Shown here in pieces: positions 27,275-61,000 of a stretch of 64,000 bases of DNA (positions are counted from its first letter, which is position 1; each line of letters starts with the position of its first letter). The position numbers and the translations under genes are program-made. The notes beneath the pieces are model-generated. The model did not search any database, was not told the DNA's origin, and saw nothing but the letters and a program-made list of their open reading frames with translations. Location: NCBI RefSeq assembly GCF_000214355.1, contig NC_015577.1, positions 3,711,389 through 3,775,388 of the forward strand. The letters run 5' to 3'. This stretch comes from Leadbettera azotonutricia ZAS-9 (GTDB lineage: Bacteria > Spirochaetota > Spirochaetia > Treponematales > Breznakiellaceae).

Positions 27275-28615
27275 GGCCTGTCCTGAAGTTTGTGTAAATG
27301 GCCAAAATATGGTAGAAATACCAAGGAGACAAAATGGCCAGTACACGAAAACTGAAAGAGAAGGATCTGATCGACCAAATACTCGATCAGATAGACCTTA
27401 AAGGAATGACCCAGGAAGAAATCCTTGGACAGGAAGGATTATTAAAGCATCTGACAGGGAAGCTGCTAAGCCGTGTCATGAATGCTGAAATGGACGAGCA
27501 TTTGGGGTATGAAAAGAATTCCAACGCCGGGGACAATTCGGGGGACAGCCGAAACGGGTACAGTGAAAAGACAGTCCTGACAGAGAATCAGAGTGCAGTG
27601 ATACAGGTACCACGGGACCGCAATGGAACGTTCGAACCCAAGATACTGGCGAAACACCAAAGACGGCTCCCTATATTTAACGACCAGGTTATTTCGATGT
27701 ATTCCTTTGGGATGACCGACCGGGATATTAAATCACACCTGGAAAAAATATATAACGTGGAAGTCTCCCCTGAATTGATAAGCCGTGTCACTGCAGCGGT
27801 GATGGAAGAAGTGAAGGAGTGGCAGAATCGGCAGCTGGAAAAATCTTATGCCATCGTGTATTTGGACGCCCTGAGGGTCAAGACCAAACAGGACGGGAAA
27901 AGCTGTACCAAGAGCGTCTATGTGGCTCTGGGAGTGAATTTCGAGGGTCAGAAGGAGGTATTGGGCCTTTGGATAGCGGAGAACGAAGGGGCTAAGTTCT
28001 GGATGGGCGTCCTGAACGAAATAAAGAACCGGGGAGTGGAAGACATACTCATCGCTTGCATGGACGGCCTTACCGGTTTCCCCGAAGCGGTTCGGGCAGT
28101 ATTTCCCAAGACCCGTATCCAATTGTGCATTGTCCACATGGTGCGTAATTCCACCAAGTTTGTTTCCTGGAAAGACCTGAAAAAAATCTGTGCCGATCTT
28201 AAGGCCATATATTCGGCAGCCACCGAGGAAGCCGGCCGTGACGCACTGGAAGAATTCGGCAAGATATGGGATGCCAAGTACCCGATGATATACCAGTCCT
28301 GGGATACCCACTGGGATGACTTAAGCGAGTTCTTTAAATACCCGCCTGAAATCCGCAAGGCAATTTACACGACAAATGCAATTGAGTCATTAAATTACCA
28401 GCTGCGAAAAGTCACAAAAAACCGCTCGACATTTCCGAACGATGATGCTATATTTAAGATATTGTATTTGGCAATTAGGAATGCGTCAGAGAAATGGACA
28501 ATGCCGGTACGGGATTGGGGGATGGCGCTCAACCAATTCGCTATTATTTTTGGCAATGAACGGGTTCCGTTCTAAATAATTCATTGCCATTTACACAAAA
28601 ATTCGGACACGTCCC
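27275..28615. mobile_element. IS256-family insertion sequence
   Basis: 1341 bp. Imperfect terminal inverted repeats of about 29 bp (both ends share TTTGTGTAAATGGC on the inner side and end GGG...GTCC). The 8-bp sequence TTAATCTG occurs on both sides (27267-27274 and 28616-28623), the target duplication size typical of IS256. One intact transposase gene inside, so the element may be active and recently inserted. Confidence 0.9.
27334..28575 (+). CDS. IS256-family transposase
   Basis: 413 residues, full length for the Mutator/IS256 family. AGGAGA upstream of the ATG at 27334. Conserved segments of the DDE core: IVYLDALRVK, LIACMDGLTGFPEAV, VFPKTRIQLCIVHMVRNS (the C-x2-H signature) and YTTNAIESLNYQLRK with the final Glu. 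No frameshift. Confidence 0.95.
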   Translation: MASTRKLKEKDLIDQILDQIDLKGMTQEEILGQEGLLKHLTGKLLSRVMNAEMDEHLGYEKNSNAGDNSGDSRNGYSEKTVLTENQSAVIQVPRDRNGTFEPKILAKHQRRLPIFNDQVISMYSFGMTDRDIKSHLEKIYNVEVSPELISRVTAAVMEEVKEWQNRQLEKSYAIVYLDALRVKTKQDGKSCTKSVYVALGVNFEGQKEVLGLWIAENEGAKFWMGVLNEIKNRGVEDILIACMDGLTGFPEAVRAVFPKTRIQLCIVHMVRNSTKFVSWKDLKKICADLKAIYSAATEEAGRDALEEFGKIWDAKYPMIYQSWDTHWDDLSEFFKYPPEIRKAIYTTNAIESLNYQLRKVTKNRSTFPNDDAIFKILYLAIRNASEKWTMPVRDWGMALNQFAIIFGNERVPF

Positions 28616-28692: not shown

Positions 28693-29403
28693 TCAAGAAT
28701 ACGGAAAATCGTGTTCCATATATACTAAATATTTTGAATGTTTTAATATACTTTTATTTACCAATTTATAGTCTAATTCCTCGGATAAATCAAAATCAGG
28801 TGTATCTGTTTCCGCAATTTTCGTCAAATATGCTTCGTGCATATTCATGCTATAATAATATGCACTTTTTGATATAGCTATAGGCATTTCTTTATATTTC
28901 AAATTTGTTTCTACAAATTCAATCAACAACCCTGCGGCAAGCCGCGAGGTATGTTGTTCTCTTAAGGAATTGGACTCGGGGCTTAATACCTTTTTAACCG
29001 CCCCAAGGCTCCCCTGCGAAGCAGGCTCTTGGGTATTAACCCCCTCGCCATGAATAAAACCTGTTTTCACATCAATTTCTATCAAATATTTTGGATATTT
29101 ATTAAAAAATTTTTTTAAAATAGTGTTCGCCAATGTTCCTTTTTCTTGTCCTAAATTATTCATTAATATTTCTCTATTAGGTTTTATACAATAATGTTCT
29201 TTATATGAATAAACGCACAAACCCAAATGATTCATTTCACAAACATAAAATTCTTCAAGTTTAAATAAATTTGAGCACATTGTTTTTAATATATTTTTAT
29301 CTTCTGAAATATTTTTTAATATATTTCCAAATATGTCAATGAATGCTTCGGCAATATTTTCCTCTTTGTTTTCATTTAAATCTTTTGTAAGTTTAATTTC
29401 CAT
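28693..29403 (-). CDS. Hypothetical protein with an in-frame repeat insertion
   Basis: 236 residues. The two flanks (residues 1-114 and about 160-236) are AT-rich, Lys/Asn/Ile-rich and look like one normal protein. The middle 46 codons, from about GEGVNTQEPASQG to AAGLLI, come exactly from repeat copy B and have quite different base composition. No known domain. The insertion keeps the frame open, so the protein could still be made. It ends just beyond the IS256 element. Confidence 0.55.
   Translation of the reverse strand: MEIKLTKDLNENKEENIAEAFIDIFGNILKNISEDKNILKTMCSNLFKLEEFYVCEMNHLGLCVYSYKEHYCIKPNREILMNNLGQEKGTLANTILKKFFNKYPKYLIEIDVKTGFIHGEGVNTQEPASQGSLGAVKKVLSPESNSLREQHTSRLAAGLLIEFVETNLKYKEMPIAISKSAYYYSMNMHEAYLTKIAETDTPDFDLSEELDYKLVNKSILKHSKYLVYMEHDFPYS
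28922..29059. repeat. 138-bp palindromic repeat, copy B (inside a coding sequence)
   Basis: Nearly identical to 26381-26518 and equal to 46 codons, it lies in frame within the 28693-29403 gene. The same nested palindromes are present. This resembles Rickettsia palindromic elements, which insert in frame into genes, though no sequence relation is claimed. Confidence 0.85.
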
Positions 29404-32340: not shown

Positions 32341-32500
32341 GGGGGGGGAGATTTGCAGGACGTCGGCCAGCTTCCCGATAAATGCGAAAGAAGGGTAGCG
32401 GCTGCCGCATTCAATCTGCCGGATGTAGGAATGCGAAGCGTAGCATAGCGCGGCAAGCTTTTCCTGGACGCCCTCCGGGTGAATATCCGCGATGGGGCAG
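32341..32500 (-). pseudogene. XRE-type HTH fragment
   Basis: The minus strand encodes EKLAALCYASHSYIRQIE, then CGSRYPSFAFIGKLADVLQIS, a clear Cro/CI helix-turn-helix core. The 5' part of the gene is cut off by the broken IS256 transposase. After the domain comes a run of eight C and nine A bases (minus strand), a likely slippage site. No start codon remains. Confidence 0.6.
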
Positions 32501-32502
32501 CG

Positions 32503-33177
32503 GTGGTTAAAAAATCCGTTTATTTGGCCTTGGCGATACGTTTGGATGGGCAGAAAGAGCTTTTAGGGCTCTGGATTGAGCAAAACGAAGGGGCCAAGTT
32601 CTAGATGGGCATTATGACTGAACTAAAAAGCCGGGGAATACAGGACATCCTCCTTGCCGCCGTCGATGGGCTGACCGGCTTTCCTGACGCTATCGCCGCG
32701 GTATTCCCCAAAACCGAGGTTCAGCTGTGTATCGTCCACATGCTTCGGAACTCAGTTCGATTTGTCCCGTACAAAGACCGGAAGGCGGTAATCGCCGGGC
32801 TTAAAACTATTTACCTGGCTCCTTCGGCAGAACTTGCCACCTGCGCGCTGGAAGAATTCTCAAAAGTCTGGGATAAAAAATACCCGATGATTTCAAAATC
32901 TTGGCGCACCCGATGGAACGAGGTCATACCGTTTTTTAAATTCTCGCCTGAAATCAGGAAGGCTGTTTATACTACCAATGCCATTGAATCAGTCAATTAC
33001 ACGATTCAAAAAATCATCAAACACCGTCAGTCTTTTCCGAATGACGAAGCTGCGGTGAAATTAATTTTTATGGGCTTGAAAAACATTTCCAGAAAATGGA
33101 CAATGCCTATACGAGATTGGGGGGCGGCCCTCAATCAATTCGCAATCATTTACGGGGAAGACAGAGTCCCCCTATGA
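32503..33177 (+). pseudogene. Truncated IS256 transposase
   Basis: About 224 codons match the C-terminal half of the transposase at 27334, including GFPDAIAAVFPKTEVQLCIVHML and YTTNAIESVNYTIQK. The first half is gone. The codon for the Trp of GAKFWMG is TAG here (32602-32604), so even the remaining part is interrupted. It differs from the intact copy at many positions, so it is a different, older element. Confidence 0.85.
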
Positions 33178-33462: not shown

Positions 33463-36400
33463 TTATTCCACCAATGGAGTCAACATTTTTGAAATAAGGT
33501 CATGAATTAAAGCCACGTTCAATTGTTCTAATGAATTTGTTCTTTGGCCAACTTCTAAAACACTTTTCAATGCTTTCAACGATTCAGTATAGTTACCTAT
33601 CTTGTTATATACAATTCCCACATTTATTAATGATTTAATAACCTCAATATGCTCTTCGCCAAAGATTGTTTTGCGAATTTCAAATGCACGTATAGCGTAC
33701 TGTAAGGATTTATTGTATTCCTTTAATCCAAAATATAAACTGCCAATGCCGTCATAATTTTCAGCAATATCAGCATTTTCTTCTGTAGATATTTGTTTTT
33801 GCAGTTCCACCATTTTATTTGTCACTTTCAAGAGTACATTGAAATCCCTTGGCTTATTTGCCCTATATTTTTGTTGGGCTTTCTTATAATATTCTATTGC
33901 CTCATTTATTTTTTGTAGGCAACAATATATTTCCCCAGCACCTGAATACGTTGCCCCTAACAAATTATAATTATCCGGGAAAATACTTAACCGAATTTCC
34001 AATGCTTTTAATTGGACCTCTAATGCCATATTGTAATCTTTTATACTTTTATATACCTCGGCCATATTGGAATATGACATTGCAGTATCTGCGTGCTCAT
34101 CACCAAGAACCTTCTTTCGCATCATTAACGATTTTTGCGCATACTCTAACGCCATATTTATATCGCCTATTCTGAAGTATGCTAAACCGATAGTGTTATA
34201 TGTAGTAGCAACTGCCTCGTTTTCTTCGCCATATACCTTGACTTGCAGCTTCCTCAATACATCAAGCAATTCCAGCAGCTTTTTCGAATCCTTTGGAGAT
34301 ACTTGCCGATGATTTTTTATTACTTTATCAAAATATTCAATGGCTTCTTTATAATCACCGTGTTTTATATTATTTTTTTTCGCGTATTTCCAGGCCTTGC
34401 TGCCTAGTGGCGTGTATATGGTCAGAAATCTGCAATGTTCAAACACCTCATCATAGTCAACCATGGTTGTGGTTGTTGCATCAAAGAAGGCGATAGTGTT
34501 TCTTAAAAATATCAAGAACCCAGGAGCAATTTTGCCAAATTTTTTGACCTTTTCCGGAATGATAACAGTCTTTAGTGACATACAATAATTAAAAGCACCG
34601 CTACCAATTTCTTCGACTTCATCCGGGATGGTGACGTGCACTAATGACCCACAACTGGAAAAAGCATTTTCCCCAATAGTTGTGACGCTATTCGGTATAT
34701 TAACGTTCCTTAGTGATTTACATCCTGAAAAAGCAGAATCACCAATACTTTTGATGCCATCAGGGATATCTATGCTTGTTAATGATTTGCAGAATGTAAA
34801 GACGCTGTCGGCAATTTTGCTAATGCCGCCCGGGATGACAATATTCTTTAGCGAGCTACAGCAACTAAAAGCATAGTCTCCAATACTGGTGACACTTTCC
34901 GGTATGTTGATGTTTATCAGCGTTTCACATCCCGAAAAAGCGTTTGCACCAATACTCAAGACACTATCTGGGATGTTGACATTTTCTAATGATTTACATC
35001 CTGAAAAGGCACCGCTGAAAATATTAATGCCGCCAATGTTCGTAACGCCATTTGGGATAGTAACATCTATCAAAGATTCACAATTCCTAAATGCGGTTGC
35101 GCCAATACTTGTAAGCGTCAAGGGAGGGTTAAAAAATGTTTCCGGTATTATTAGCCGTGGAAAATCAGTTGGGTAAAATTTCACTATTTCAACAGTGTTA
35201 TCATTTTTTTGCACATCAAACCCTCTGGGATGTCCAATATTGCATCCAAACTTCCGCAGACTGTCGCGTATTCTTCCGGAAAATTCTTGTTGCGAGCAAA
35301 GGCTTTGGATTATTGCCTGCCGATCATGCAATTTACCCCTGATTTCATCAGGCCAATCGGTACAACCTCCCAAAAAAACTTGAATGATATGCGAAGGATC
35401 ATGTTGTACCGCATATTTTATTTTTTTCATTGCTTGTCCGGATCCTGCGGTTTTATCTGAAAAAAATGCCAAAACACATTGACTGTCATCAATTTCCTGT
35501 TCAACCGTAGTTTTAGAATAATAAAAATTAAATCCCTCCCAGTAGAGTTCCGCCAGTAAGGTACTAATATGCTCTATATCCCATTTTGCACAACATATAT
35601 ATGCTCGCGGTGTTTCATTGCTTTTTGGAATTAATTGTCCGGGTTTTATCTTTTTAACCTCTTGTATTTCCATTTCCTGTTCTTGAACTTCATCAACAGG
35701 AATTCTTTCGAGGACGGACAATTCCACCGGGGTTCCACGAAAAGCCTTATAACCAATACTCGTTACACTATCCGGTATGGCGGCATTTTTTAATGATGTA
35801 CAACCCCAAAAAGATTTTTCACCAATACTCACGACATTCTCTGGTATTGTTACGCTTTTTAGTGCCTTACAACCCTCAAAAGCACTTTCTCCAATGCTTG
35901 TGATACTTTTCGGTATAACGATGTTTTCTAAAGATTTACATCCCTGAAAAACCCTATTATCAATACCTGTAATTCCTTCAGGTAAGATAACGCTCGAAAG
36001 TGATATACAATACGCAAAGGCATTGTCAAGAACGCTTTCAACACTGTTTGGGATAGTGATATTTTTCAACGAACTGCATTTCGAAAAAGTTTCTGCACAA
36101 ATCTCCTTAACACTTTCTGGGATGATAACATTTGATAGGGATTTACATTCTTTGAATGCACTCTGTCCAATATTTATGACATTGCCCGAAATAGTGATAC
36201 TCTTCATTGATTTGCATTTACTAAAGGCATCGTCACCAATTTTAATAACGCTATCTGGGATAAAAACTCTTTTTAAGGATTTACAGCCTGAAAAAGCTTT
36301 ATCGCCAATGTTTGTAACACTATTGGGGATGATAATGCTCTTTAAATTGACACTGCCTGCGAAGGCTTCGGCACCAATTTCTGTAACACTGTCTGGGATG

Positions 36401-38355
36401 ATTATGCTATCGGGTAATCGACACTTAATCACTTGGCACTTGGTTAATATTTGAATGATTATTCTTGAAAAAAATGACAAACTTGAAAAAGCACCTGGGT
36501 TGATTATTATTACACCATCAGGGATGGCATACGGTTTTGCAGAGTTCCAGTTTTGAGGTCCGCAGAAAATGGTTGTTTTGTCGGTATTAAAAACCGCATC
36601 CAGTTGATGACAGTATGAAAATGTTTCTTTGCCAATCTCAATGTCCTTGGGGAGAATTATGTTTTTTAAAGAATTGCACCCACAAAAAGCTTTATAACCG
36701 ATATTGGTAACACTATCTGGGATGATAAGGTTTGTAAGCGATTTACAAAATGAAAAAGTTTCATCGGCGATGCTTTCAACGCTATCGGGAATGTCAATTT
36801 CGGTTAATGATGTACAATTAAAAAAAGCAGAACCGCCTATACTTGTCACACTATCCGGCAAAACAACAGAAATAAGTGATTTGCAACCACTAAAAGCATG
36901 GTCTCCAATGCTGACGATACCTTTCGGAATAGTTATATTTTTTAGTGATTTGCAACCACTAAAAGCATAGTCTCCAATGCAGATGATGTTTTTTGGAATA
37001 GTTATACTTTTTAGCGACCTGCAGCCAAAAAAAATAAAGCCGCCAATACTTGTGATGTTGTCTGGAATAGTTAAACTTTCCAGCGATTCACAGCCCGAAA
37101 AAGCGCCTTGTCCAATACTGGTAATACTGTCGGGAATGGTAATACTTGTCAACAATCTACACTTCTTAAGTAAATCCTTGTCTGTTTTCGTTTTGTCATT
37201 GAGCATACCTGAACTGATCATGCCAATATTTAACATAATTTTGGAAATACCCCTGCTGCCTCCTGTAAAGGCATAGTCGCCAATAGCAGTAACCTGAAAT
37301 GTTATATTCCCTTCGGCGGATGTAGCTGTACTGGGAATAATAACATCTCTGTCATTTCCGACATACCTTGTAATGGTTATCTTATCCCCCTGTACCAGAA
37401 TATTGAATCCGGGCATATCCAGCGGTAAATTAACGTCATATACTACATTTTGCTTGATGGCAGGCGGAACAGCCGTACGTTTCCCGCAGTTTTTCAGGTC
37501 AACACTGCTTATGCTCATCTGTAATGCATCCGGTGCTATTGCTGTCTTTACAAGCTGCGCAGCATTTTCCATAGACCAAGGCTGCGGGGTTAACTCTTCT
37601 AATAAAACCGGAACAATGGGAATCCCTCGTTGCCGGGCATACTCCAGTTCATAATTCATAACAAACGGCCTATCCAAGCAACGGTTTGTCAGCATTAATA
37701 CAAATACCGAACAATGCCTGACATGATCGGCGATAACGGGTAAATAACGTTCCGTTACTTTAATGCCCTCATCGTACCACAAATCCCAGCCGGATTCATA
37801 TAATTCCTTTATTTTGGGATAAACCTGTATTGCATCATCATGGGCGTAGCTAATGAATATATACGGCTCATCCCCCTCATAAGCCTCACAAGGCTTATCG
37901 CATATTTGTGGGGTTGATGGTGTATAAGGTGTGTCATCAGGAGTAAATCGTTCCAACTCGGCAATGAGCTTCCCGATGGAGGTACATGAATATCTTGCTG
38001 TGAGCATTTCCAACGCGCTGAGAAGTTGCGGATCACATTCTCTATTTTGGTAATCCTGCTGTATATCCGCAAGGCTATCCAGCCAGACGGGGATAAATGG
38101 TTTTCGCGCAACGGTGGCTGCATAAGCGAATTCTTCAAGCATCAAACGCTGATCCCGTACATACGCCTTGGTCAGGAATATCAAAACCATGCCGCTTTGC
38201 CGGATAGACTCCAATATTGCCGTTTGCTCGGCTTGTAATCCCGGAATGTCGATATTGTACCATCCTGCCGCCCGGACTTGTTCCAATGTAGGCAACACAA
38301 GTCTTTCGTCATCCGGATGGAAACCTACAAAAATATTTGTACCTTTTTCCAACAT
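33463..38355 (-). CDS. Giant TIR-TIR-LRR-TIR-like-LRR-TPR protein
   Basis: 1630 residues, ATG at 38355 with AAGGGG upstream. Domains by eye: a divergent TIR (about 5-137, with EEFAYA supplying the expected Glu75); a canonical TIR (163-275: PYIFISYAHDD, WDLWYDEGI, MNYELEYA with Glu236); Treponema/BspA-type leucine-rich repeats of 23 residues (about 355-875, consensus SLxxIxIPDSVTSIGxxAFxxC); a third TIR-like fold (917-1035) where Lys replaces the catalytic Glu; more LRRs (about 1080-1290); and kinesin-light-chain-like TPRs (about 1380-1625). No signal peptide, membrane segment or P-loop. TIR domains can cleave NAD; LRR and TPR parts could bind a trigger. It is AT-rich, flanked by IS and toxin-antitoxin debris. 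An inverted repeat CACAGT/ACTGTG (38375-38392) sits upstream. Confidence 0.85.
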   Translation of the reverse strand: MLEKGTNIFVGFHPDDERLVLPTLEQVRAAGWYNIDIPGLQAEQTAILESIRQSGMVLIFLTKAYVRDQRLMLEEFAYAATVARKPFIPVWLDSLADIQQDYQNRECDPQLLSALEMLTARYSCTSIGKLIAELERFTPDDTPYTPSTPQICDKPCEAYEGDEPYIFISYAHDDAIQVYPKIKELYESGWDLWYDEGIKVTERYLPVIADHVRHCSVFVLMLTNRCLDRPFVMNYELEYARQRGIPIVPVLLEELTPQPWSMENAAQLVKTAIAPDALQMSISSVDLKNCGKRTAVPPAIKQNVVYDVNLPLDMPGFNILVQGDKITITRYVGNDRDVIIPSTATSAEGNITFQVTAIGDYAFTGGSRGISKIMLNIGMISSGMLNDKTKTDKDLLKKCRLLTSITIPDSITSIGQGAFSGCESLESLTIPDNITSIGGFIFFGCRSLKSITIPKNIICIGDYAFSGCKSLKNITIPKGIVSIGDHAFSGCKSLISVVLPDSVTSIGGSAFFNCTSLTEIDIPDSVESIADETFSFCKSLTNLIIPDSVTNIGYKAFCGCNSLKNIILPKDIEIGKETFSYCHQLDAVFNTDKTTIFCGPQNWNSAKPYAIPDGVIIINPGAFSSLSFFSRIIIQILTKCQVIKCRLPDSIIIPDSVTEIGAEAFAGSVNLKSIIIPNSVTNIGDKAFSGCKSLKRVFIPDSVIKIGDDAFSKCKSMKSITISGNVINIGQSAFKECKSLSNVIIPESVKEICAETFSKCSSLKNITIPNSVESVLDNAFAYCISLSSVILPEGITGIDNRVFQGCKSLENIVIPKSITSIGESAFEGCKALKSVTIPENVVSIGEKSFWGCTSLKNAAIPDSVTSIGYKAFRGTPVELSVLERIPVDEVQEQEMEIQEVKKIKPGQLIPKSNETPRAYICCAKWDIEHISTLLAELYWEGFNFYYSKTTVEQEIDDSQCVLAFFSDKTAGSGQAMKKIKYAVQHDPSHIIQVFLGGCTDWPDEIRGKLHDRQAIIQSLCSQQEFSGRIRDSLRKFGCNIGHPRGFDVQKNDNTVEIVKFYPTDFPRLIIPETFFNPPLTLTSIGATAFRNCESLIDVTIPNGVTNIGGINIFSGAFSGCKSLENVNIPDSVLSIGANAFSGCETLININIPESVTSIGDYAFSCCSSLKNIVIPGGISKIADSVFTFCKSLTSIDIPDGIKSIGDSAFSGCKSLRNVNIPNSVTTIGENAFSSCGSLVHVTIPDEVEEIGSGAFNYCMSLKTVIIPEKVKKFGKIAPGFLIFLRNTIAFFDATTTTMVDYDEVFEHCRFLTIYTPLGSKAWKYAKKNNIKHGDYKEAIEYFDKVIKNHRQVSPKDSKKLLELLDVLRKLQVKVYGEENEAVATTYNTIGLAYFRIGDINMALEYAQKSLMMRKKVLGDEHADTAMSYSNMAEVYKSIKDYNMALEVQLKALEIRLSIFPDNYNLLGATYSGAGEIYCCLQKINEAIEYYKKAQQKYRANKPRDFNVLLKVTNKMVELQKQISTEENADIAENYDGIGSLYFGLKEYNKSLQYAIRAFEIRKTIFGEEHIEVIKSLINVGIVYNKIGNYTESLKALKSVLEVGQRTNSLEQLNVALIHDLISKMLTPLVE

Positions 38356-38449
38356 TTATAATCCCCTTGAAAACCACAGTAGATTCACTGTGTTTACTAC
38401 TATATCCCTGCTTCCATCTGCACCCTTAACACTTCAGGCGCTGTCTGCT

Positions 38450-52083: not shown

Positions 52084-53688
52084 ATGGCAAAACAAAAGAA
52101 TATCTCCGCGAAGCCCCCCGCCTCCGCAGAACCGATAGAAAAACAACTCTGGAAAGCCGCAGACAAACTGCGGAAAAACATCGACGCCGCAGAATACAAG
52201 CACATCGTCCTGGGCCTCATCTTCCTCAAGTACATCTCCGACGCCTTCGAGGAACTCCACGAAAAATTGACCTCCGGAAAAGGCGAATACAAAGGCGCCG
52301 ACCCCGAAGACCGGGACGAGTACCTGGCGGAAAATATTTTCTTTGTCCCCGAAAACGCCCGCTGGACCCGTATCCGTTCACGGGCAAAACAGGTTTCCAT
52401 AGGCAAAGATATCGACGCCGCCATGGACGCCATCGAAAAAGACAACCCCTCGTTAAAGGACGTACTCCCCAAAGTCTACGCCCGGGGCAACCTCGACCCC
52501 GTGAACCTCGGCGCCCTGGTAGACCTTGTCAGCAACACCGCCCTGGGAACAGCCGAGGCCCGGAGCGCCGACCTTCTGGGCCACGTGTTTGAATATTTTC
52601 TCGGAGAGTTCGCCCTCGCAGAAGGCAAGAAAGGCGGCCAGTTCTACACCCCCCGAAGCGTAGTAGAACTGTTAGTCTCCATGCTGGAACCCTACAAAGG
52701 CCGGGTCTTTGACCCCTGCTGCGGTTCCGGCGGCATGTTTGTCCAGTCCGAAAAATTTGTAGCCAACCACCGGGGCCGCCTCAAGGACATTTCGATATAC
52801 GGCCAGGAAAGCAACCACACCACCTGGCGCCTTGCCAAAATGAACCTCGCCATCCGGGGAATCGAAAGCTCCCAGGTATCGTGGAACAACGAAGGCTCCT
52901 TTCTCAAAGACGCCCACCGTGACCTCAAGGCCGATTTCGTCATCGCCAATCCCCCTTTTAACGACAGCGACTGGTCCGGGGAACTCCTCCGCACCGACGC
53001 CCGCTGGCAGTACGGAACCCCGCCCGCAGGAAACGCCAACTACGCCTGGATACAACACTTCCTCTACCACCTGGCCCCCAAAGGAACTGCCGGCTTCGTC
53101 CTTGCCAAAGGCTCCCTCACCTCAAAGAGCTCAGGCGAAGGCGACATCCGCAAAGCCCTCATCGAAGCGCAGCTCGTAGACTGCATCGTCAACCTCCCGG
53201 CCAAACTCTTTCTCAACACCCAAATCCCCGCCTGCCTCTGGTTCCTCTCCCGCAGCAAAGCCCGAGGCCCCCGCTCCGCCGAAATCCTCTTTATCGACGC
53301 CCGCAGCCTCGGCCGCCTCATCAACCGCCGCACCCGCGAACTCGCCCCCGAAGACATCGCGCAAATTGCCGAAACCTATCACCACTGGCGCAGCGCGAAC
53401 CCCTCCTACCAAGACATCAAAGGCTTTTGCTCCTCCGCCCTCATAGACCGCGTCAGAGACCTTGATCACGTCCTTACCCCCGGCCGCTACGTCGGCCTCC
53501 CCGACGAAGAAGACGACTTTGACTTTGCCACCCGCTTCACCAGCCTTAAAGCCGAGTTCGAAGCCCAGCTCAAAGAAGAAGCGCGTCTTAACAAGCAGAT
53601 ACTGGAAAACCTCAAGAAAATAAATCCCGAACCCAAAAAAGGAACCGCCAACGCGGCCCCTAAAAATAGAAGTTTAAAGGAAAACTAA
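52084..53688 (+). CDS. hsdM: Type I restriction-modification DNA methyltransferase subunit
   Basis: 534 residues. HsdM_N helical domain first (KQLWKAADKLRKNIDAAEYKH), then the methyltransferase with the SAM motif DPCCGSGGMF (210-219) and catalytic NPPF (289-292). It methylates adenine in the site set by HsdS and makes part of the restriction complex. Codons end in C far more often than in nearby genes, a bias shared only by the next gene, pointing to joint transfer. Confidence 0.95.
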   Translation: MAKQKNISAKPPASAEPIEKQLWKAADKLRKNIDAAEYKHIVLGLIFLKYISDAFEELHEKLTSGKGEYKGADPEDRDEYLAENIFFVPENARWTRIRSRAKQVSIGKDIDAAMDAIEKDNPSLKDVLPKVYARGNLDPVNLGALVDLVSNTALGTAEARSADLLGHVFEYFLGEFALAEGKKGGQFYTPRSVVELLVSMLEPYKGRVFDPCCGSGGMFVQSEKFVANHRGRLKDISIYGQESNHTTWRLAKMNLAIRGIESSQVSWNNEGSFLKDAHRDLKADFVIANPPFNDSDWSGELLRTDARWQYGTPPAGNANYAWIQHFLYHLAPKGTAGFVLAKGSLTSKSSGEGDIRKALIEAQLVDCIVNLPAKLFLNTQIPACLWFLSRSKARGPRSAEILFIDARSLGRLINRRTRELAPEDIAQIAETYHHWRSANPSYQDIKGFCSSALIDRVRDLDHVLTPGRYVGLPDEEDDFDFATRFTSLKAEFEAQLKEEARLNKQILENLKKINPEPKKGTANAAPKNRSLKEN

Positions 53689-53689
53689 A

Positions 53690-54031
53690 ATGCCATTTAT
53701 TTCAGTAACCATCGGACAAAAACTAAACAGCGCAGAAAAAGAAAAACTCAAAGCCGAACTCGGCCGCCTCATCACCATCATCCCCGGCAAAACCGAACCC
53801 GACCTCATCGTCCACATCCAGGACTCAGGCGCCGTCTACATGGGCGGAACAGAAACCCCCTCCGTCTACATCGACCTCCGCGTCTACACCAAAACCAAAG
53901 AAGACGCCAAAAAAACCTTCACCAAAAAACTCTTCGATTTTATCACCGCCGAATACGGCATAAAACCAGACCGCCAATACCTCACCATCAGCGAATACGA
54001 AAACTGGGGCTACGACGGCGAGTTCCACTAA
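53690..54031 (+). CDS. MIF/tautomerase-like protein
   Basis: 113 residues beginning MPFISVTIGQKL; the Pro after the initiator Met is the catalytic base in the tautomerase superfamily. SVYIDLRVYTKTKEDAKKTFTKKLFDFI and PDRQYLTISEYENWGYDG fit the MIF-like fold. The ATG lies one base after the hsdM stop, with AAAGGAAAAC inside hsdM, and the codon bias matches hsdM. A metabolic enzyme inside a restriction operon is unexpected; its role there is unknown. Confidence 0.7.
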   Translation: MPFISVTIGQKLNSAEKEKLKAELGRLITIIPGKTEPDLIVHIQDSGAVYMGGTETPSVYIDLRVYTKTKEDAKKTFTKKLFDFITAEYGIKPDRQYLTISEYENWGYDGEFH

Positions 54032-54056
54032 GGAAGAATCATGAAGAGCATAAAAA

Positions 54057-54166
54057 GGGGGAGCACTGTAAAAACCGTGTATGTAATACAGAACCGGCTA
54101 AACCTTTTACCCTTATTCGCCGCGGCTCCCCCTCGCTCCGAAGGTTTTTGGCCAGAGGCCAAAAAC
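54057..54166. repeat. Structured intergenic element with two inverted repeats
   Basis: GGGGGAGC (54057-54064) pairs with GCTCCCCC (54125-54132). Just after, GTTTTTGGCC-AGA-GGCCAAAAAC (54144-54166) is a 10-bp perfect hairpin. It lies between the tautomerase and hsdS genes where codon usage changes, so it may mark a recombination joint or an inserted REP-like element. Confidence 0.55.
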
Positions 54167-54219
54167 TCTTCTCCGCTACCCCCACTCGGTTTGTCGGGTG
54201 GTGAGACATGGAGGCGGGC

Positions 54220-55320
54220 ATGAGCAGGGACGGGTGGCGGGAGTGCAAGCTGGGGGATGTAGCTAAATTTAAAACTGGAAAATTAAATTCAAATGCCGCA
54301 GCAGCTGATGGGATTTATCCTTTCTTCACTTGTTCACCGGAAACATTAAAAATAGATAACTATGCATTTGATGAAGAAGCCTTATTATTAGCTGGAAATA
54401 ATGCAAATGGGGTTTTTTCATTAAAATATTTCCATGGGAAATTTAACGCTTATCAACGAACCTATATTATTAATCTAAATAATTCTTGTGATTATAAATA
54501 TATATTTTATGCTTTACAAAAAGAAATAAAAAATTTGGAATTTACTTCTCATGGAACAGCAACAAAATTTCTTACATTGTCAATACTCAATACTATACCT
54601 ATTTTACTTCCTTCTATCAGTAAACAAAAAGCTATCGTTTCAATCCTGTCAAGCCTTGATGATAAAATTGATTTACTGAATAGGCAGAATAAGACCTTAA
54701 AGGCAATGGCGGAAACGTTGTTTCGACAATGGTTTGTGGAGGAGGCAGACGAGAGGTGGGAGGAGAAACCGTTAAGTGACATAGCTGAATTTCTTAATGG
54801 ATTAGCATGTCAAAATTATCCTCCCGTTAATGATAACGAAAAATTACCTGTATTAAAAATAAGAGAGTTAAGTAGTGGAATATCCGAACAATGTGATTGG
54901 GCCACAACTGACGTAAGTAAAAATTATATCATTCATAATGGAGATGTTATCTTTTCTTGGTCAGCGTCATTAATGGTCAAAATATGGGATGGCGGAGACT
55001 GTATTCTGAATCAGCATTTATTCAAAGTTAGTTCCAAGGAATACCCCAAGTGGTTCTATTTTGGGTGGTGTAAATATCATTTAGAAGAATTTATAGCTAT
55101 TGCTCAGACCCATGCCACAACTATGGGACATATCAAGAGAGGTGATTTGGATGCGGCCATGGTAGTAGTTCCACTAAAAAAGGAGCTTGAAACTATGACA
55201 AAACAGATGTATCCTTTACTGGAAAAGCAAATTGGTAATTCGAAGCAAATTAATGCTCTCATGCAGATGCGGGATATGGTGTTACCAAAATTAATGAGTG
55301 GAGAAGTGAGTGTGGATTAA
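54220..55320 (+). CDS. hsdS: Type I restriction-modification specificity subunit
   Basis: 366 residues from the ATG at 54220, which has GGAGG 5 bases upstream; an ATG at 54208 lacks one. Two target recognition domains (about 5-150 and 190-330) are each followed by a coiled coil (ILSSLDDKIDLLNRQNKTLKAMAETLFRQW and the C-terminal QINALMQMRDMVLPKLMSGE). It is strongly AT-rich compared with hsdM, in keeping with separate exchange of specificity genes. Sets the DNA site for both methylation and cutting. Confidence 0.92.
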   Translation: MSRDGWRECKLGDVAKFKTGKLNSNAAAADGIYPFFTCSPETLKIDNYAFDEEALLLAGNNANGVFSLKYFHGKFNAYQRTYIINLNNSCDYKYIFYALQKEIKNLEFTSHGTATKFLTLSILNTIPILLPSISKQKAIVSILSSLDDKIDLLNRQNKTLKAMAETLFRQWFVEEADERWEEKPLSDIAEFLNGLACQNYPPVNDNEKLPVLKIRELSSGISEQCDWATTDVSKNYIIHNGDVIFSWSASLMVKIWDGGDCILNQHLFKVSSKEYPKWFYFGWCKYHLEEFIAIAQTHATTMGHIKRGDLDAAMVVVPLKKELETMTKQMYPLLEKQIGNSKQINALMQMRDMVLPKLMSGEVSVD

Positions 55321-55332
55321 GGAGGAAATATT

Positions 55333-56190
55333 ATGCAAAAGCTGAAAACCAATAAGTTTATTATATTTCGATACCAAATACTTCCTATTGATAGAAAATT
55401 CCAAGGATTTCTTTTTGAGAATATTAATAGTATAGATGAACTCATTGCAAAGAAAAATGATATTTTTCAAGAATATCTCAAAACATTTGGAAATCTAACA
55501 AAAGAAAAATCACAAATCATTGTTCAGCATATGAATGAAGAGAAAGATTCTTTATTATTTAAATTTGCAGTTAACCGTTCAATGATCAGAGAAACAAAAA
55601 TTTTTACAGAAGAAGAATTGGAGAATTGGCCATCATTTTTGGTATATTTCTGGAATGACCCTAAAAAACAGTATTTAATTATTCAAGAGCGTAAGAAAGC
55701 TTTTCAGCATATCGACACTATAACTTCCTATATTGAAAATTATTTATCGGATAAATTAAAAGAGTATGGCTTGACGATTCATTTCGAACCATTATTCAAC
55801 ATAGAAGACTTTTGGCATATTATTTCAGAGCATTATAACAACATCAAAGAAATTCAATTTGAATTAATTACTCCAAATATGGCCAATATTTCACATAATT
55901 TAAGTACCGATTTAAAAAATTTAGCATATTCAACTAATACTACAAGATCGCAATTAACGATTGCATCTGATGTTGGCTCATCATTAAAAATTGAAAATGA
56001 CAATAGTCAGATTAATAACTTGGTTAAATATTCTAGTGAAGGGGGAGGTAATATTACGATTAGAGTTAAGGGGCTAAAATCAAAAATTCAAACTTCTAAA
56101 ACAAAAAAAACCATTGAGATAAACGAGATGGAAATTATTGGTAAAGACCCTGGAGAAATAATACAAATACTAAAAAGGAATCTACAATGA
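55333..56190 (+). CDS. Unknown protein in the restriction locus
   Basis: 285 residues, AT-rich. AGGAGG just before the ATG. The N-terminal half is mixed alpha/beta; around residues 175-205 it reads FELITPNMANISHNL and the C-terminal third is beta-rich with SSEGGGNITIRVKG. I believe this is a recognisable but uncharacterised family seen in mobile regions; I cannot name it. It overlaps the membrane protein gene by 4 bp, so the two form a pair. Possible role in defence or immunity regulation is only from context. Confidence 0.55.
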   Translation: MQKLKTNKFIIFRYQILPIDRKFQGFLFENINSIDELIAKKNDIFQEYLKTFGNLTKEKSQIIVQHMNEEKDSLLFKFAVNRSMIRETKIFTEEELENWPSFLVYFWNDPKKQYLIIQERKKAFQHIDTITSYIENYLSDKLKEYGLTIHFEPLFNIEDFWHIISEHYNNIKEIQFELITPNMANISHNLSTDLKNLAYSTNTTRSQLTIASDVGSSLKIENDNSQINNLVKYSSEGGGNITIRVKGLKSKIQTSKTKKTIEINEMEIIGKDPGEIIQILKRNLQ

Positions 56191-56642
56191 AAAATATAGT
56201 GATACATATACTTATTTCAATAGGATTCTCCTTTTTAATTGTTCAATTTCAAAAGATAATGGATTCTCAATACTTAACAGAATACCTAAAAGGAAATTTA
56301 ATTACCATTATCATTGCTCTTTTAGCAATTAACACCGCCACCCTTGGTATTATTTTAAGCAGAATACGAGAAATAATTAATAATTTAAAGCAGGATTATT
56401 TCATCAATACAAAAAAACAAATGCTAAGTTCAATAACAGAGCAAATAATATTAGTCATTATTTCTATCATTTTTTTTATAATAAATGATTCAAATTGGTT
56501 AATAAAAAATTCTGAATATAGGGAACTTATCGATACATTTTGTATTTCCCTATTTATATATGACTTAATTATTTTATATGATACTTCAAAAAGTATTTTT
56601 ATAATTGTCAATTTTAAAAATAATAATAAAGCTGATAATTAA
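56187..56642 (+). CDS. Small membrane protein paired with the 55333 gene
   Basis: 151 residues with four likely membrane segments: about 4-22, 37-57, 88-104 and 117-135, with short polar loops (the second loop is basic, NLKQDYFINTKKQ). Starts in an ATGA overlap with the upstream stop. No known family. A soluble protein coupled to a small membrane protein is a layout seen in several phage-defence systems, but no direct homology is claimed. Confidence 0.55.
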   Translation: MKNIVIHILISIGFSFLIVQFQKIMDSQYLTEYLKGNLITIIIALLAINTATLGIILSRIREIINNLKQDYFINTKKQMLSSITEQIILVIISIIFFIINDSNWLIKNSEYRELIDTFCISLFIYDLIILYDTSKSIFIIVNFKNNNKADN

Positions 56643-56680
56643 AATTATTGTGGGGGTTAAATATCTGTATGTCTTGATAG

Positions 56681-56935
56681 TACCAGGCAACTTTTTTAAA
56701 AACCTTTGTCTGCGCCTGCCGCAGTAATATACAGTATAACCATGGATACGATATGGTTACCGGCAAAATTGCCAATGACGATGTGGGCGAAACAGTGTCC
56801 TTTGTGGTACAGGGAATTATGCGGCCAGAAGATGCCCTTGAAAAATTGAAATTTGAAACGATCAATAATCAGATATGTTTTGCCACCGAAAAGGCCCTGT
56901 CCTTTTTAATGTATATCGGATTTGAGGAGTTATAA
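56681..56935 (+). pseudogene. C-terminal fragment of a DUF3990-like protein
   Basis: The open frame begins after a TAG and reads NHGYDMVTGKIANDDVGETV, then MRPEDALEKLKFETINNQICFATEKALSFLMYIG. The YDxVxGxxADDxV and QxxFxTEKALxFL motifs fit the C-terminal end of DUF3990 proteins, thought to be ADP-ribosyltransferase-like toxins. The N-terminal half is missing. An ATG at 56753 exists but has no ribosome binding site. Confidence 0.45.
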
Positions 56936-56936
56936 C

Positions 56937-57131
56937 ATGGCCCACAGTTTGATAAAAGCGGCAATCATCCCCGAAATTGTAAAATTGATAGCCGAAAAAC
57001 ACGCGGTCTCCGAACAAAAGGCCCTGGACATGTTTTATACTTCCGCAACGGCAGCTTCCCTTTCGGACGATGAAACCGGCCTTTATGGGCAGAGCGCCCT
57101 GTATATTTTCTCACTCTTTAAGGAGGAATAA
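56937..57131 (+). CDS. Small DUF3791-like protein
   Basis: 64 residues from the ATG at 56937 with GAGGAG upstream, two bases after the preceding fragment. IPEIVKLIAEKHAVSEQKALDMFYTS, then ETGLYGQSALYIFSLFKEE, resembles short DUF3791-type proteins usually found beside DUF3990 genes, and possibly their antitoxins. If so it has outlived its toxin. Assignment is tentative. Confidence 0.5.
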   Translation: MAHSLIKAAIIPEIVKLIAEKHAVSEQKALDMFYTSATAASLSDDETGLYGQSALYIFSLFKEE

Positions 57132-57253
57132 AAAAGGCCTGCTTATCTTCAAGAAAATAGTCGTTATCTATTTATCCAAAATTCTTCACTAAAATCGTCA
57201 TTTTTTCTTCGCTTTTTTCTCCAAATTCAGTATATTGATACCAGGGAATAAAT

Positions 57254-57303
57254 GGATCTTCTGGGATCCATTTCTTAATAAGAAGGATCTCCTGAGATCC
57301 ATT
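57254..57303. promoter_or_regulatory. Two palindromic operator-like repeats before an XRE gene
   Basis: GGATCTTCTGGGATCCATT (57254-57272) and GGATCTCCTGAGATCCATT (57285-57303) differ at two of 19 positions and are each palindromic at their ends (GGATC...GATCC). They lie 31 bp apart start to start, directly upstream of the XRE gene ATG at 57322, and probably bind its product. Confidence 0.6.
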
Positions 57304-57321
57304 CTAAATTCGGAGGGAAAT

Positions 57322-57624
57322 ATGAGTGCTCAGGATTTTTGGAACCGTGTAAGGTTCATGGTAACGAAAAACAAGACAACTCAGGTGGAAATCGCAAAGG
57401 CTTGTAATATATCCTATAATACCCTTCACGGATGGATATTAAAAAATATATACCCGCCGGTTATCGACGCTTACAATATCGCTAAAACGCTGGGTGTTAC
57501 TGTTGATTATCTTATGGCGGGCAAGAGTACAGAGGAACAAAAAATAGAAGTCCAAATTAAAGGGGTCAAAGATTTGCTACAGCATGCTGAAACAAAGCTT
57601 GATAAAATGATGCCTACTACTTGA
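57322..57624 (+). CDS. XRE-family regulator in the restriction locus
   Basis: 100 residues from the ATG at 57322 (GGAGGG upstream); an upstream in-frame start would run through the operator repeats. FWNRVRFMVTKNKTTQVEIA, then KACNISYNTLHGWILKNIYPPVIDAYNIAKTLGVTVDYLMAG, is a Cro/CI helix-turn-helix with the usual VDYLLxG end. The tail may dimerise. Probably autoregulated and perhaps a controller of hsdR, like C proteins of type II systems. Confidence 0.8.
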   Translation: MSAQDFWNRVRFMVTKNKTTQVEIAKACNISYNTLHGWILKNIYPPVIDAYNIAKTLGVTVDYLMAGKSTEEQKIEVQIKGVKDLLQHAETKLDKMMPTT

Positions 57625-57693
57625 TAATACTACAAAAATAGACTACATTAAGAATATGAAGTTACCCGGCAGAAAGGGGTGAAAGGAAAAGCT

Positions 57694-58023
57694 ATGAAGG
57701 ATACTATAGAATCGATGGTAAGGGCTGGGAAGAAAGCACCCCCTGAAATTATCAAAGAAGCCAGACGAGTGGCAAGAGAAGCCCGGAAACACCCGGAATC
57801 ATACGATCCCGAATGCCCTCCCAGCTCTCCGCAAGCCTTGGCGGAGTTCGCAGCTCAGGCCCGGGAACTTCGAAAGCGAAAAGCTTCCCCCGTGGTTTCT
57901 ATTCGCGTAAAGCCGGAGGCCCTGGAAAAATACAGGGCCTTGGGGAAAGGTTATACCGGTACCATGGGGGATGTATTGAACTACGTGGCCGATAACCCGG
58001 AGATCCTTGCAAAGGTTTTATGA
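57694..58023 (+). CDS. BrnA-like antitoxin
   Basis: 109 residues from the ATG at 57694; a GTG at 57679 is also possible. The first half is charged; the end VVSIRVKPEALEKYRALGKGYTGTMGDVLNYV has the ribbon-helix-helix pattern of BrnA (VxIRxxxxxLxxxKxxGKGYxTxINxxL). No BrnT toxin gene precedes it; the neighbour is the XRE gene, so it is an orphan or a repressor of hsdR. Confidence 0.65.
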   Translation: MKDTIESMVRAGKKAPPEIIKEARRVAREARKHPESYDPECPPSSPQALAEFAAQARELRKRKASPVVSIRVKPEALEKYRALGKGYTGTMGDVLNYVADNPEILAKVL

Positions 58024-58091
58024 CAGGCGTGGGTTCATTTGCTTCATAATACCTGATGCCTACTGGTTACATTTACTCCCATCCCCCATCC

Positions 58092-61000
58092 ATGTTAAAC
58101 TTTTCTATGCCCTTCCTCACCGAGTCTGATATTGAACAATACGCCCTCGAACTTCTCGAAGCCCAGGGCTATGACTGTCTGTACGGCCCGGACATTGCGC
58201 CGGGCGGGCATAATCCGCTCCGTAAATCTTTTGATGAGGTTCTCCTCTTTGATATGCTGGAAGCCGCTGTTGCCCGGATTAACCCGAACCTTTCACGGGA
58301 GCTTCGGGAGGATGCGGTCAGGCAGTTGGCCCGGCTCCGCAGTGCGGATCTTATGGTCAACAACGAAACCTTTCACCGCTTCTTCACCGAGGGGGTTCCT
58401 GTAACCAGTGTTTCAGGCGGTTATGAGCGGGGAGACAGGGTGATGCTGGTTGACTTTGAACATCCTGAGACTAACGATTTTACAGCGGTCAACCAGTTTA
58501 CGATTATCGAGAATCATATCAATAAACGGCCCGACATCATCCTCTTTATAAACGGGATTCCCCTGGTGGTAATCGAATTAAAAAACGCCGCCGATGAAAA
58601 CGCGGATATTGCATCAGCCTGGAAGCAGATACAAACGTACAAAGAGGCGATTCCCTCCCTTTTTACCTTTAACAGTTTTGCAATTATCTCTGACGGCCTT
58701 GAGGCGCGGGCGGGAACCATTTCTTCGGGGCAGAGCCGCTTTATGGCCTGGAAAAGCGCCGATGGCAGGAAAGATGCGTCCGGGCATACGGGGCAGATCG
58801 AGACCCTTATTAAGGGGATGCTGAATACGCAAACCCTGCCGGATCTTATCCGCCACTTTATTGTGTTTGAAAAAACCAGACGGGAAGACAGTAAAGGAAT
58901 TACCGCCGTCGAGACGGTTAAAAAACTTGCGGCCTATCATCAATACTACGCGGTGAACAAGGCGGTGGAATCTACCCTGCGGGCATCGGGGTATGTAAAA
59001 AAGTCAAAGGGGATACACAAGGGGATTGGCGCAGAATCGGAGAATGCCGCTGCCGAAGATCCTGAATCCTACGGACTGCCCGGTGTAAAAACCCAGCCCC
59101 TGCGGGACCGGAAGGGCGGCGTTATCTGGCATACCCAGGGCTCGGGGAAGTCCCTGTCCATGGTGTTCTTTACGGGCAAGATCATCCTTGCCATGGATAA
59201 CCCTACCGTGGTGGTGATCACCGACCGGAATGATCTGGACGATCAGCTTTTTGACACTTTTAGTGCTTCAAAACAACTGCTCCGTCAGGAACCGGTTCAG
59301 GCGGAGAGCCGAGGCCAGCTCAAGGAACTTCTCAAGGTTGTTTCAGGTGGCGTGGTGTTTACTACCATTCAGAAATTTCAGCCCGAGGACGGCAGTAATC
59401 TGTACGAAGAACTGTCGAAGCGGGAAAATATCATCGTTATTGCCGACGAAGCCCACCGGAGTCAGTACGGGTTTACTGCAAAAACGCTGGACGAAAAAAA
59501 CGAAGCCGGGGAAGTGATCGGCAAAAAGACGGTGTACGGTTTTGCCAAATATCTGCGGGACGCCCTGCCCAACGCGACGTATCTGGGCTTTACCGGCACC
59601 CCCATCGAAAGCGCCGATGTGAACACCCCTGCGGTCTTTGGCAATTATGTGGATATCTACGATATTGCCCAGGCGGTGGAAGACGGCGCCACAGTCCGCA
59701 TCTATTACGAAACCCGTCTGGCGAAAATTTCATTGAGCGATGAAGGCAAAAGGCTCATTCAGGAATTTGACGATGACCTTGAAATGACTGAACTCGCGGA
59801 GACCCAAAAGGCTCAGGCGAAATGGGCCCAGCTTGAAGCCCTTGTCGGAAGCTCCGGCAGGATAAAAAAAATAGCCCTGGATATTGTTACCCATTTTGAA
59901 CAGCGCCAAACGGTATTAAACGGCAAGGCCATGATTGTCGCCATGTCACGCCGTATTGCCGCCGCCCTGTATGAGGAAATTACCGTCCTGAGGCCCGAAT
60001 GGCACAACAGCGATTTGGATAAGGGAAGTATCAAAGTGGTGATGACATCTTCTTCTTCCGATGGGCCTGAAATATCCAAACATCATACTACCAAGGATCA
60101 ACGCCGCAAACTTTCTGACCGGATGAAAAATCCCCATGACGAACTCCGTCTGGTGATCGTTCGGGATATGTGGCTCACCGGGTTTGATGTGCCCGCTCTC
60201 CATACCCTCTATATTGATAAGCCCATGCGGGGCCATAACCTGATGCAGGCCATAGCCCGAGTCAACCGGGTATATCTGGATAAAAAGGGCGGCCTCATCG
60301 TGGATTATCTGGGGATCGCTTCGGATCTAAAAGATGCCCTTTCCTTTTATTCCGCCTCAGGGGGCAGGGGCGATCCGGCGGAAACCCAGGAGCAGGCGGT
60401 TTCCCTCATGCTGGAAAAACTGGAAGTGGTGTCTCAGCTGTTCCACGGTTTCGATTATTCCCCCTACTTTAGTGCCGGTACGGGGCAGAAGCTTTCCCTC
60501 ATTCTTGCTGCGGAGGAACATATCTTGCAGCAGGAAGACGGACGACGGCGTTTTCTCGATCAGGTAACTGCCCTGTCCCAGGCCTTCGCTATTGCGGTTC
60601 CCCATGACAAGGCCATGGATGTAAAGGATGAAGTCGCCTTCTTCCAGGCGGTAAAGGCCCGGCTTGCAAAATTTGACGGGCCCGCTTCCGACGAAACCGT
60701 TTCCGGTAAATCCTCAGGCGCCTCCGCGCAGACAGCCTCCTCCCTGGAAACCGCCATCCGCCAGATCGTTGACCAGGCCCTGGTAACAAGCCGGGTGATC
60801 GATGTGTATGAAGCGGCGGGAATCAAGAAGCCCGATATTTCGATCCTTTCGGAAGAATTCCTTATGGACGTAAAAAACATGGAGCACAAGCACCTCGCCA
60901 TGGAAGTGCTGCGAAAACTCCTTGCCGATGAAATCAGGGCCCGGCTTAAAACAAACCTGGTGGAAGGGAAGACCCTGATGGAAATGCTGGAAAATTCCAT

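Follow-up and report, generated by a model that had tools for sequence, protein, structure and literature searches.

A motorless TIR-LRR-TPR protein of Leadbettera azotonutricia and the RyR-domain membrane protein encoded beside its relatives

How a very large repeat protein with three TIR regions and no nucleotide-binding motor might act in a bacterium is the question raised by one gene of Leadbettera azotonutricia, a spirochaete of the termite gut, lying in the 64-kb stretch of DNA analysed here (the window; Table 1). The earlier note, made from the letters alone, had read a TIR-TIR-LRR-TIR-LRR-TPR architecture on one real gene, and this was borne out: the open reading frame was intact over 1630 codons, with an ATG start and no internal stop, and the Pfam scan matched LRR_5 (E 1e-184), TPR_12 (E 5e-39) and, over three stretches, TIR_2 (E 2e-22). 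When the gene was compared with its own paralogue, dN/dS values of 0.23 (TIR1), 0.13 (TIR2), 0.13 (TIR3), 0.19 (LRR2) and 0.37 (TPR) were obtained; some of the dS values are above 1 and rough, and the ratios reflect past selection. Low as they are, they indicate that the frame is not a chance one, and by this comparison the gene is under purifying selection. Identity to the paralogue was 81% in TIR1, 86% in TIR2, 81% in TIR3, 65% in LRR2 and 49% in the TPRs. Conserved TIRs with diverged TPRs are the pattern expected of a sensor, and the alignment presents the receptor as constant signalling domains joined to diverging repeats. Scans for a promoter and for a terminator at the gene gave results at chance level and at or below chance, respectively.

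Table 1. Coordinates in the window of the receptor gene, its domains and flanking features
Feature	Position	Strand	Basis
Receptor gene, TIR-TIR-LRR-TIR-LRR-TPR, 1630 aa	33463..38355	-	ORF, Pfam, dN/dS
Shine-Dalgarno-like AAGGGG, 7 nt upstream of receptor ATG	38363..38368	-	read from upstream sequence
TIR1, residues 8-94; Glu75 codon 38131-38133	38074..38334	-	TIR_2 29.2 bits; Glu75 opposite Glu236
TIR2, residues 166-259; Glu236 codon 37648-37650	37579..37860	-	TIR_2 45.2 bits
LRR block 1, BspA type, about residues 393-880	35716..37179	-	LRR_5; 14 strict motifs; model
TIR3, residues 915-1037; Lys978 codon 35422-35424	35245..35613	-	sub-threshold TIR_2; model, fold matches, alignment
LRR block 2, about residues 1080-1278	34522..35118	-	LRR_5/LRR_8/LRR_4; 8 strict motifs
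TPR array, about residues 1359-1617	33505..34281	-	TPR_12 + TPR_10, best 1382-1455
IS256-type transposase fragment, in the flank that holds the partner gene in relatives	32458..33174	+	identity to full copy

To judge the TIR regions singly, residues 1-155, 156-300 and 900-1060 were scanned apart against TIR_2, whose cut-off is 28 bits. TIR1 and TIR2 both scored above it, as the earlier claim of two N-terminal TIRs with candidate catalytic Glu75 and Glu236 had implied, and in a profile alignment of TIR2 with TIR1 by hhalign (E 2e-7, probability 93.7) the two glutamates fell in the same column. Both were kept in 4/4 rows covering the region, at about 50-65% identity to the orthologue in genome G028. 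In a PDB profile search with TIR1-TIR2, eight of the 11 matches were TIR structures (E 0.02-0.76). The candidate catalytic Glu in helix C that marks TIR NADases was thus present in TIR1 and TIR2 and absent from TIR3. By sequence, the TIR1-TIR2 protein would work like a TIR signalling receptor.

The third region had been described as a TIR-like fold with Lys in place of Glu. Its piece scored 21.2 bits with TIR_2, which is sub-threshold, and also gave a weak ThsB_TIR match; its hhalign comparisons with TIR1 (E 0.0023, probability 12.6) and TIR2 (E 0.0027, probability 11.3) were likewise weak. It was nevertheless collinear with TIR2 over 93 columns. In this alignment Lys978 took the place of the Glu, and TIR3 was shorter by about 9 residues, the shortening lying between strand B and helix B. 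Its predicted model was well formed (pLDDT 85.5, pTM 0.80), and the comparison of residues 910-1040 with TIR folds that had been proposed came out in favour: in Foldseek, ranks 1-38 were all TIR structures (best E 9e-5), the best structural match reaching Z 15.2 over 113 residues and the BtpA TIR being among the matches. The model is partly dependent on its relatives, its alignment having only 6 rows, among them TIR1 and TIR2 from both the window receptor and the Bacteroidia orthologue; the Pfam match is independent of that alignment. When the TIR3 alignment was used by itself as a profile against the PDB, the RPS4 TIR came at ranks 6-7 of 16 (E 0.38 and 0.40), which is not significant. As modelled, TIR3 is a degenerate TIR fold in which Lys978 replaces the catalytic Glu. 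An AlphaFold model of residues 1-1150, made from a 2-row alignment, was uninformative in the TIR regions (pLDDT <40), and a strand-rich solenoid was obtained in parts of LRR block 1 (pLDDT 60-80).

A count of about 22 LRRs had been assigned to the first block. The number was recovered as 22 matches to a strict LRR motif, but these were spread over both blocks (residues 441-848 with 14, residues 1088-1254 with 8); spacing was mostly 23 residues, and block 1 is long enough for about 21 LRRs. The predicted lack of a P-loop, membrane segment and export signal held throughout: GxxxxGK[ST] was absent, no NACHT, NB-ARC or AAA match appeared in the Pfam scan, no 19-residue stretch reached a mean hydropathy of 1.6, and the same hydropathy scan, which is not a signal-peptide predictor, found no hydrophobic segment or export signal at the N-terminus. 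The receptor is accordingly predicted to be cytoplasmic. These results bear on the possibility that it is a BspA-type protein, displayed on the surface or secreted, with a eukaryotic host as its target. Its LRRs are of the type found in BspA surface proteins, and Brucella BtpA, whose TIR matched the TIR3 model, is a bacterial TIR protein that acts on hosts; yet TIR sequence begins at residue 8, no hydrophobic N-terminus or transmembrane segment precedes or follows it, and in relatives the gene is coupled to that of a bacterial membrane protein used by NACHT receptors as well. We consider such a role scarcely credible.

Orthologues of the TIR-LRR-TPR receptor were found in two other organisms, a Bacteroidia bacterium (PG1894_199, locus L016; 1467 aa) and a spirochaete relative of the same family (G028; 2045 aa). 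In the organism's own genome, G000, a single contig of 3,855,671 bases, there is one paralogue at C1:867837-873313. It is interrupted by a transposase gene, which leaves 438 codons on the 5′ side and 962 codons on the 3′ side. Among the 197 relatives searched, TIR1-TIR2 was matched in three, namely G000 itself, G028 and G099, and the last carries, as read from its translation, a TIR2-like domain only, ahead of Sel1-like repeats. TIR1-TIR2 was not found in the plasmids or viral contigs searched, and a search against phages gave a single weak match, to TIR2 only. By these searches, the architecture is real and shared, yet rare.

The neighbours of these relatives revealed a feature that the earlier note had missed. 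A gene of about 700 codons, here called the partner, adjoins the G000 paralogue, the L016 receptor and the G028 receptor, overlapping the receptor gene by 4 nt in L016 and lying 2 nt from it in G028, so that 3/4 of the TIR1-TIR2 copies followed lie next to it and the fourth is the window copy. The partner has about three transmembrane segments, a TrkA_N/RCK-like middle and a C-terminal ryanodine receptor (RyR) domain. The transmembrane segments fell in the first 130-160 residues in 5/5 copies scanned; TrkA_N was above its cut-off in one partner, that of L016 (26.9 vs 23.8 bits), Slo-like_RCK was sub-threshold in one other, and no channel structure was among the PDB profile matches.

The RyR domain became visible by profile only; a single-sequence PDB search with the partner gave nothing meaningful. 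With a profile of nine partner C-termini, 14 PDB sequences were matched at E<=10, and ranks 1-9 were all ryanodine receptor chains (best E 1e-5, then 0.08-0.27). In G000, the matches of the Pfam family PF02026 were exactly the three partner genes (E 0.11-0.25), at 13-14.5 bits, below the curated cut-off of 27.4. The family was also listed for 3/4 partner C-terminal pieces scanned and for the distant copies of G269 (E 0.009) and G303 (E 0.001), and the G274 copy had no listed match; a scan of 147 relatives at E<=0.001 gave no match but is uninformative, as the controls were likewise silent. In the full-length partner profile, the His and Trp of an EHxRW motif fell opposite those of RyR1, and a later H-A-C fell opposite its KHPC. 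The His of this K/E-H-A-C motif was kept in 8/9 aligned copies, the distant L040 being without the second His. According to a 2026 preprint (PMC13232231), H75, W78, H100 and D117 hold the ligand in the phage protein RyDEP, and in our reading, made from motif and spacing without superposition, the EHxRW and H-A-C residues would correspond to these. From the profile match and the ligand residues, Pfam itself being sub-threshold, we assign the partner C-terminus as an RyR domain.

Thirteen partner copies were gathered: three in G000, one each in G006, G023, G028, G095, G181, G269, G303 and L016, and two in G274, one of which is cut by a contig end. Ten of the 13 adjoin a gene for a TIR protein (6), a DUF4062-NACHT-TPR protein (3) or a TPR-S/cyclase protein (1), as a raw count. 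The TIR neighbours are those of the organism's own C1:873844, L016, G028, G181 (TIR_2, E 6e-8), G274 (CAP12-PCTIR TIR, E 2e-9) and G269 (TIR_2, E 1e-12, with WD-like repeats), and the NACHT neighbours those of its own C1:601626 and C1:682653 and of G095, where a 120-aa HTH-like gene intervenes. In G303 (L055:5065-6987) the RyR-type membrane protein lies 27 nt from a TPR-S and guanylate-cyclase-like gene; placed so, it suggests that RyR ligands may vary and that RyR readers may serve several nucleotide signals. No such neighbour was seen at three copies, those of G006 and G023, near contig ends, and the second of G274. At the G274 locus (L053:1-4015), two divergent RyR-type partner genes stand side by side, one of them followed by the CAP12/PCTIR-type TIR gene. 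The partner was absent from the plasmids and phages searched, and in viral contigs 17 pattern matches yielded no relatives.

In a tree of 12 partners, the Bacteroidota copy fell inside the spirochaete copies, nearer those of G000, G006 and G095 than G028 is (support 98/99), and branches were long elsewhere. Among the three G000 partners, the one beside the TIR receptor was close kin to those beside NACHT receptors. Tree and neighbours together make receptors and partner look like exchangeable modules. Transfer of partner genes seems to have taken place between spirochaetes and Bacteroidia, and the receptor-partner set probably moved between phyla. By gene context, the receptor is linked to true NLR-like proteins, the DUF4062-NACHT-TPR proteins of G000 that have a like membrane partner. 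DUF4062 was also tried as a hidden relative of the TIRs and found no support (hhalign E 0.16 or worse). One of the G000 proteins, of 2097 aa and beside an RyR partner (L023:8801-15094; G000:C1, about 684801-691094), has its TPR blocks separated by SecA DEAD, P-loop and wing domains (residues 1019-1666, E 4e-100), which look like an integrated decoy.

Further genes were noted around the relatives. Upstream of the Bacteroidia pair and on the same strand (L016:1087-9012) are genes for a protein resembling tubulin/FtsZ (a match below cut-off, E 2e-5), for a large protein judged HSP70-like by eye and from weak DnaK matches, and for a MORN/SH3/LRR protein; no such HSP70-like gene was found in G000 by a search without positive control. 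The G028 pair (L036:1-4552) is preceded by genes recognised by eye as phage portal- and capsid-like and followed by a further TIR-NPHP3_N-type gene, and is perhaps part of a prophage-borne defence cluster. By the G000 paralogue (L011:660-5444) is a ribonucleotide-reductase-like ORF of 1594 codons, seemingly with an in-frame intein (by eye).

The partner changes what the receptor is likely to do. Of the original NLR-like reading, the motorless architecture, the degenerate TIR3 and the lack of export all stood; with an RyR membrane partner in the relatives, a signal passed on to a membrane effector becomes a likelier output than plain NAD depletion. The reading we favour, with somewhat more confidence than doubt for the whole chain, is that the receptor senses an invader, its TIRs make an ADP-ribose signal and the RyR domain of the partner reads this signal at the membrane. 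LRR and TPR repeats would detect the invader, and detection would cluster the N-terminal TIRs with no need of an NTPase motor; TIR1 and TIR2 would then convert NAD+ into an ADP-ribose-type signal, TIR3 could offer a structural or regulatory TIR surface, and the separate RyR partner would read the signal, disturb the membrane and stop the infected cell. This reading draws on the architecture with its conserved Glu75 and Glu236 and on the adjacency of receptor and partner seen from both sides. It draws also on the phage RyR-domain proteins, which bind 2′/3′cADPR, 6/8 homologues tested having formed complexes (PMC13232231). In the same preprint, Thoeris effectors are activated by ADPR isomers of TIR origin, phage RyR proteins bind or cleave 2′/3′cADPR, and the response of the animal RyR R12 to such signals is left open (PMC13232231).

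Two other accounts turn on the same evidence. In one, sensing clusters the receptor and NAD+ is simply depleted, the RyR protein having another job such as removal of a signal, which would make it an immunity factor or off-switch. Depletion of NAD+ is common among bacterial TIR defence proteins, as reported for SpbK and Cat1, and one phage RyR protein is described as cleaving cADPR (PMC13232231). A membrane-anchored, TrkA_N/RCK-like protein is an odd shape for a hydrolase, however, and the partner also pairs with NACHT receptors, which have no TIR among the Pfam matches listed and whose DUF4062 is unmatched to the receptor TIRs; we regard direct depletion as unlikely. In the other account, the TIRs assemble without chemistry and recruit the partner by contact, its RyR domain binding an ordinary adenine nucleotide. 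The degenerate TIR3, a TIR1 score barely above cut-off, the pairing with NACHT receptors and the adenine ligands reported for human RyR3 R12 (PMC13232231) would all suit it, while the retention of both glutamates in every copy at such identity speaks against it, and we hold it to be quite unlikely.

Against the signalling reading stands the window copy itself, which has no partner in the 64 kb and may be an orphan: neither partner nor remnant was found there (best tblastn E 0.22). The sub-threshold PF02026 scores of the G000 partners, the absence of the second His from L040, the cyclase-like neighbour in G303 and the lack of a matching PADLOC system also weigh on that side. The IS and toxin-antitoxin debris noted nearby was located, as a UPF0175 remnant upstream of the receptor and the transposase fragment downstream, which we take to be of the IS256 family and which is 59% identical over 239 aa to a full copy at 27334-28572. 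With such fragments on both sides, no partner nearby and an IS-broken paralogue, the receptor could be a relic left by IS activity outside any working system. The 1630 codons without a stop, the Shine-Dalgarno-like site and a dN/dS of 0.13-0.37 to the paralogue oppose this, although dN/dS, reflecting the past, is compatible with recent loss; a relic is in our view very unlikely. G000 thus has an intact receptor without partner in the window and a broken receptor with partner elsewhere, and an attractive inference from this arrangement, and the simplest under the signalling reading, is that the partner at G000:C1:873844-876006 would serve the window receptor in trans. The window also contains a type I restriction-modification locus of HsdM, HsdS and HsdR (52084-61388), 14-23 kb from the receptor and A+T-rich between the Hsd genes (54000-58000), and two ORFs, 28693-29403 (236 aa) and 55333-56190 (285 aa), with no Pfam match at E 0.001.

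PADLOC returned no matching system. As in Thoeris (ThsB TIR with ThsA), the gene of a TIR protein is paired with that of a second protein, which has a domain able to bind ADPR signals, and ThsB_TIR matches occur in the receptor; in contrast to Thoeris, the receptor is very large, with repeats and three TIRs, and the partner is of TM-TrkA_N-RyR type. No SIR2-SLOG or macro-TM ThsA was found in the neighbours scanned with Pfam and PADLOC, so that the system does not appear to be Thoeris. Plant TIR-NLRs and bacterial NACHT/STAND receptors likewise have the signalling domain N-terminal and sensor repeats C-terminal, and NACHT-TPR proteins share the RyR partner type, but the receptor lacks the NTPase that defines them. 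Like RyDEP and other PF02026 domains of phages, the partner ends in an RyR domain that has the His and Trp of EHxRW; unlike RyDEP, a phage enzyme or sponge against such signals (PMC13232231), it is bacterial, membrane-anchored and encoded beside a TIR gene. The LRR_5 repeats of 23 residues resemble those of BspA-type surface proteins, from which the receptor differs in having TIRs and TPRs and no export signal. Burroughs et al. reportedly predicted TM-TrkA_N-RyR proteins in nucleotide-centred conflict systems in 2015, which the partner and its TIR and TPR-S neighbours fit; to our knowledge, a TIR-TIR-LRR-TIR-LRR-TPR companion was not part of that prediction. Our literature search, with Burroughs 2015 and Yirmiya 2025 outside its scope, returned no publication on a bacterial TIR-LRR-TPR protein with an RyR partner. 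The RyR effector class may already have been described in those two works, and we provisionally regard the pair as a new form of TIR-based nucleotide signalling.

A bolder proposal, which we put forward tentatively and consider doubtful, is that cyclic ADP-ribose from the motorless TIR-LRR-TPR receptor gates a membrane channel through the RyR-type domain, and that TIR-LRR-TPR and DUF4062-NACHT-TPR receptors are interchangeable on one type of effector. Such a receptor-to-channel axis would be a bacterial counterpart of animal cADPR-RyR signalling. The motorless receptor makes NLR-like function without an NTPase motor a testable question. If the signalling reading is true, the RyR domain would be a bacterial reader of TIR-made ADP-ribose signals, and receptors of unrelated design, TIR-LRR-TPR and DUF4062-NACHT-TPR, would share one membrane effector.
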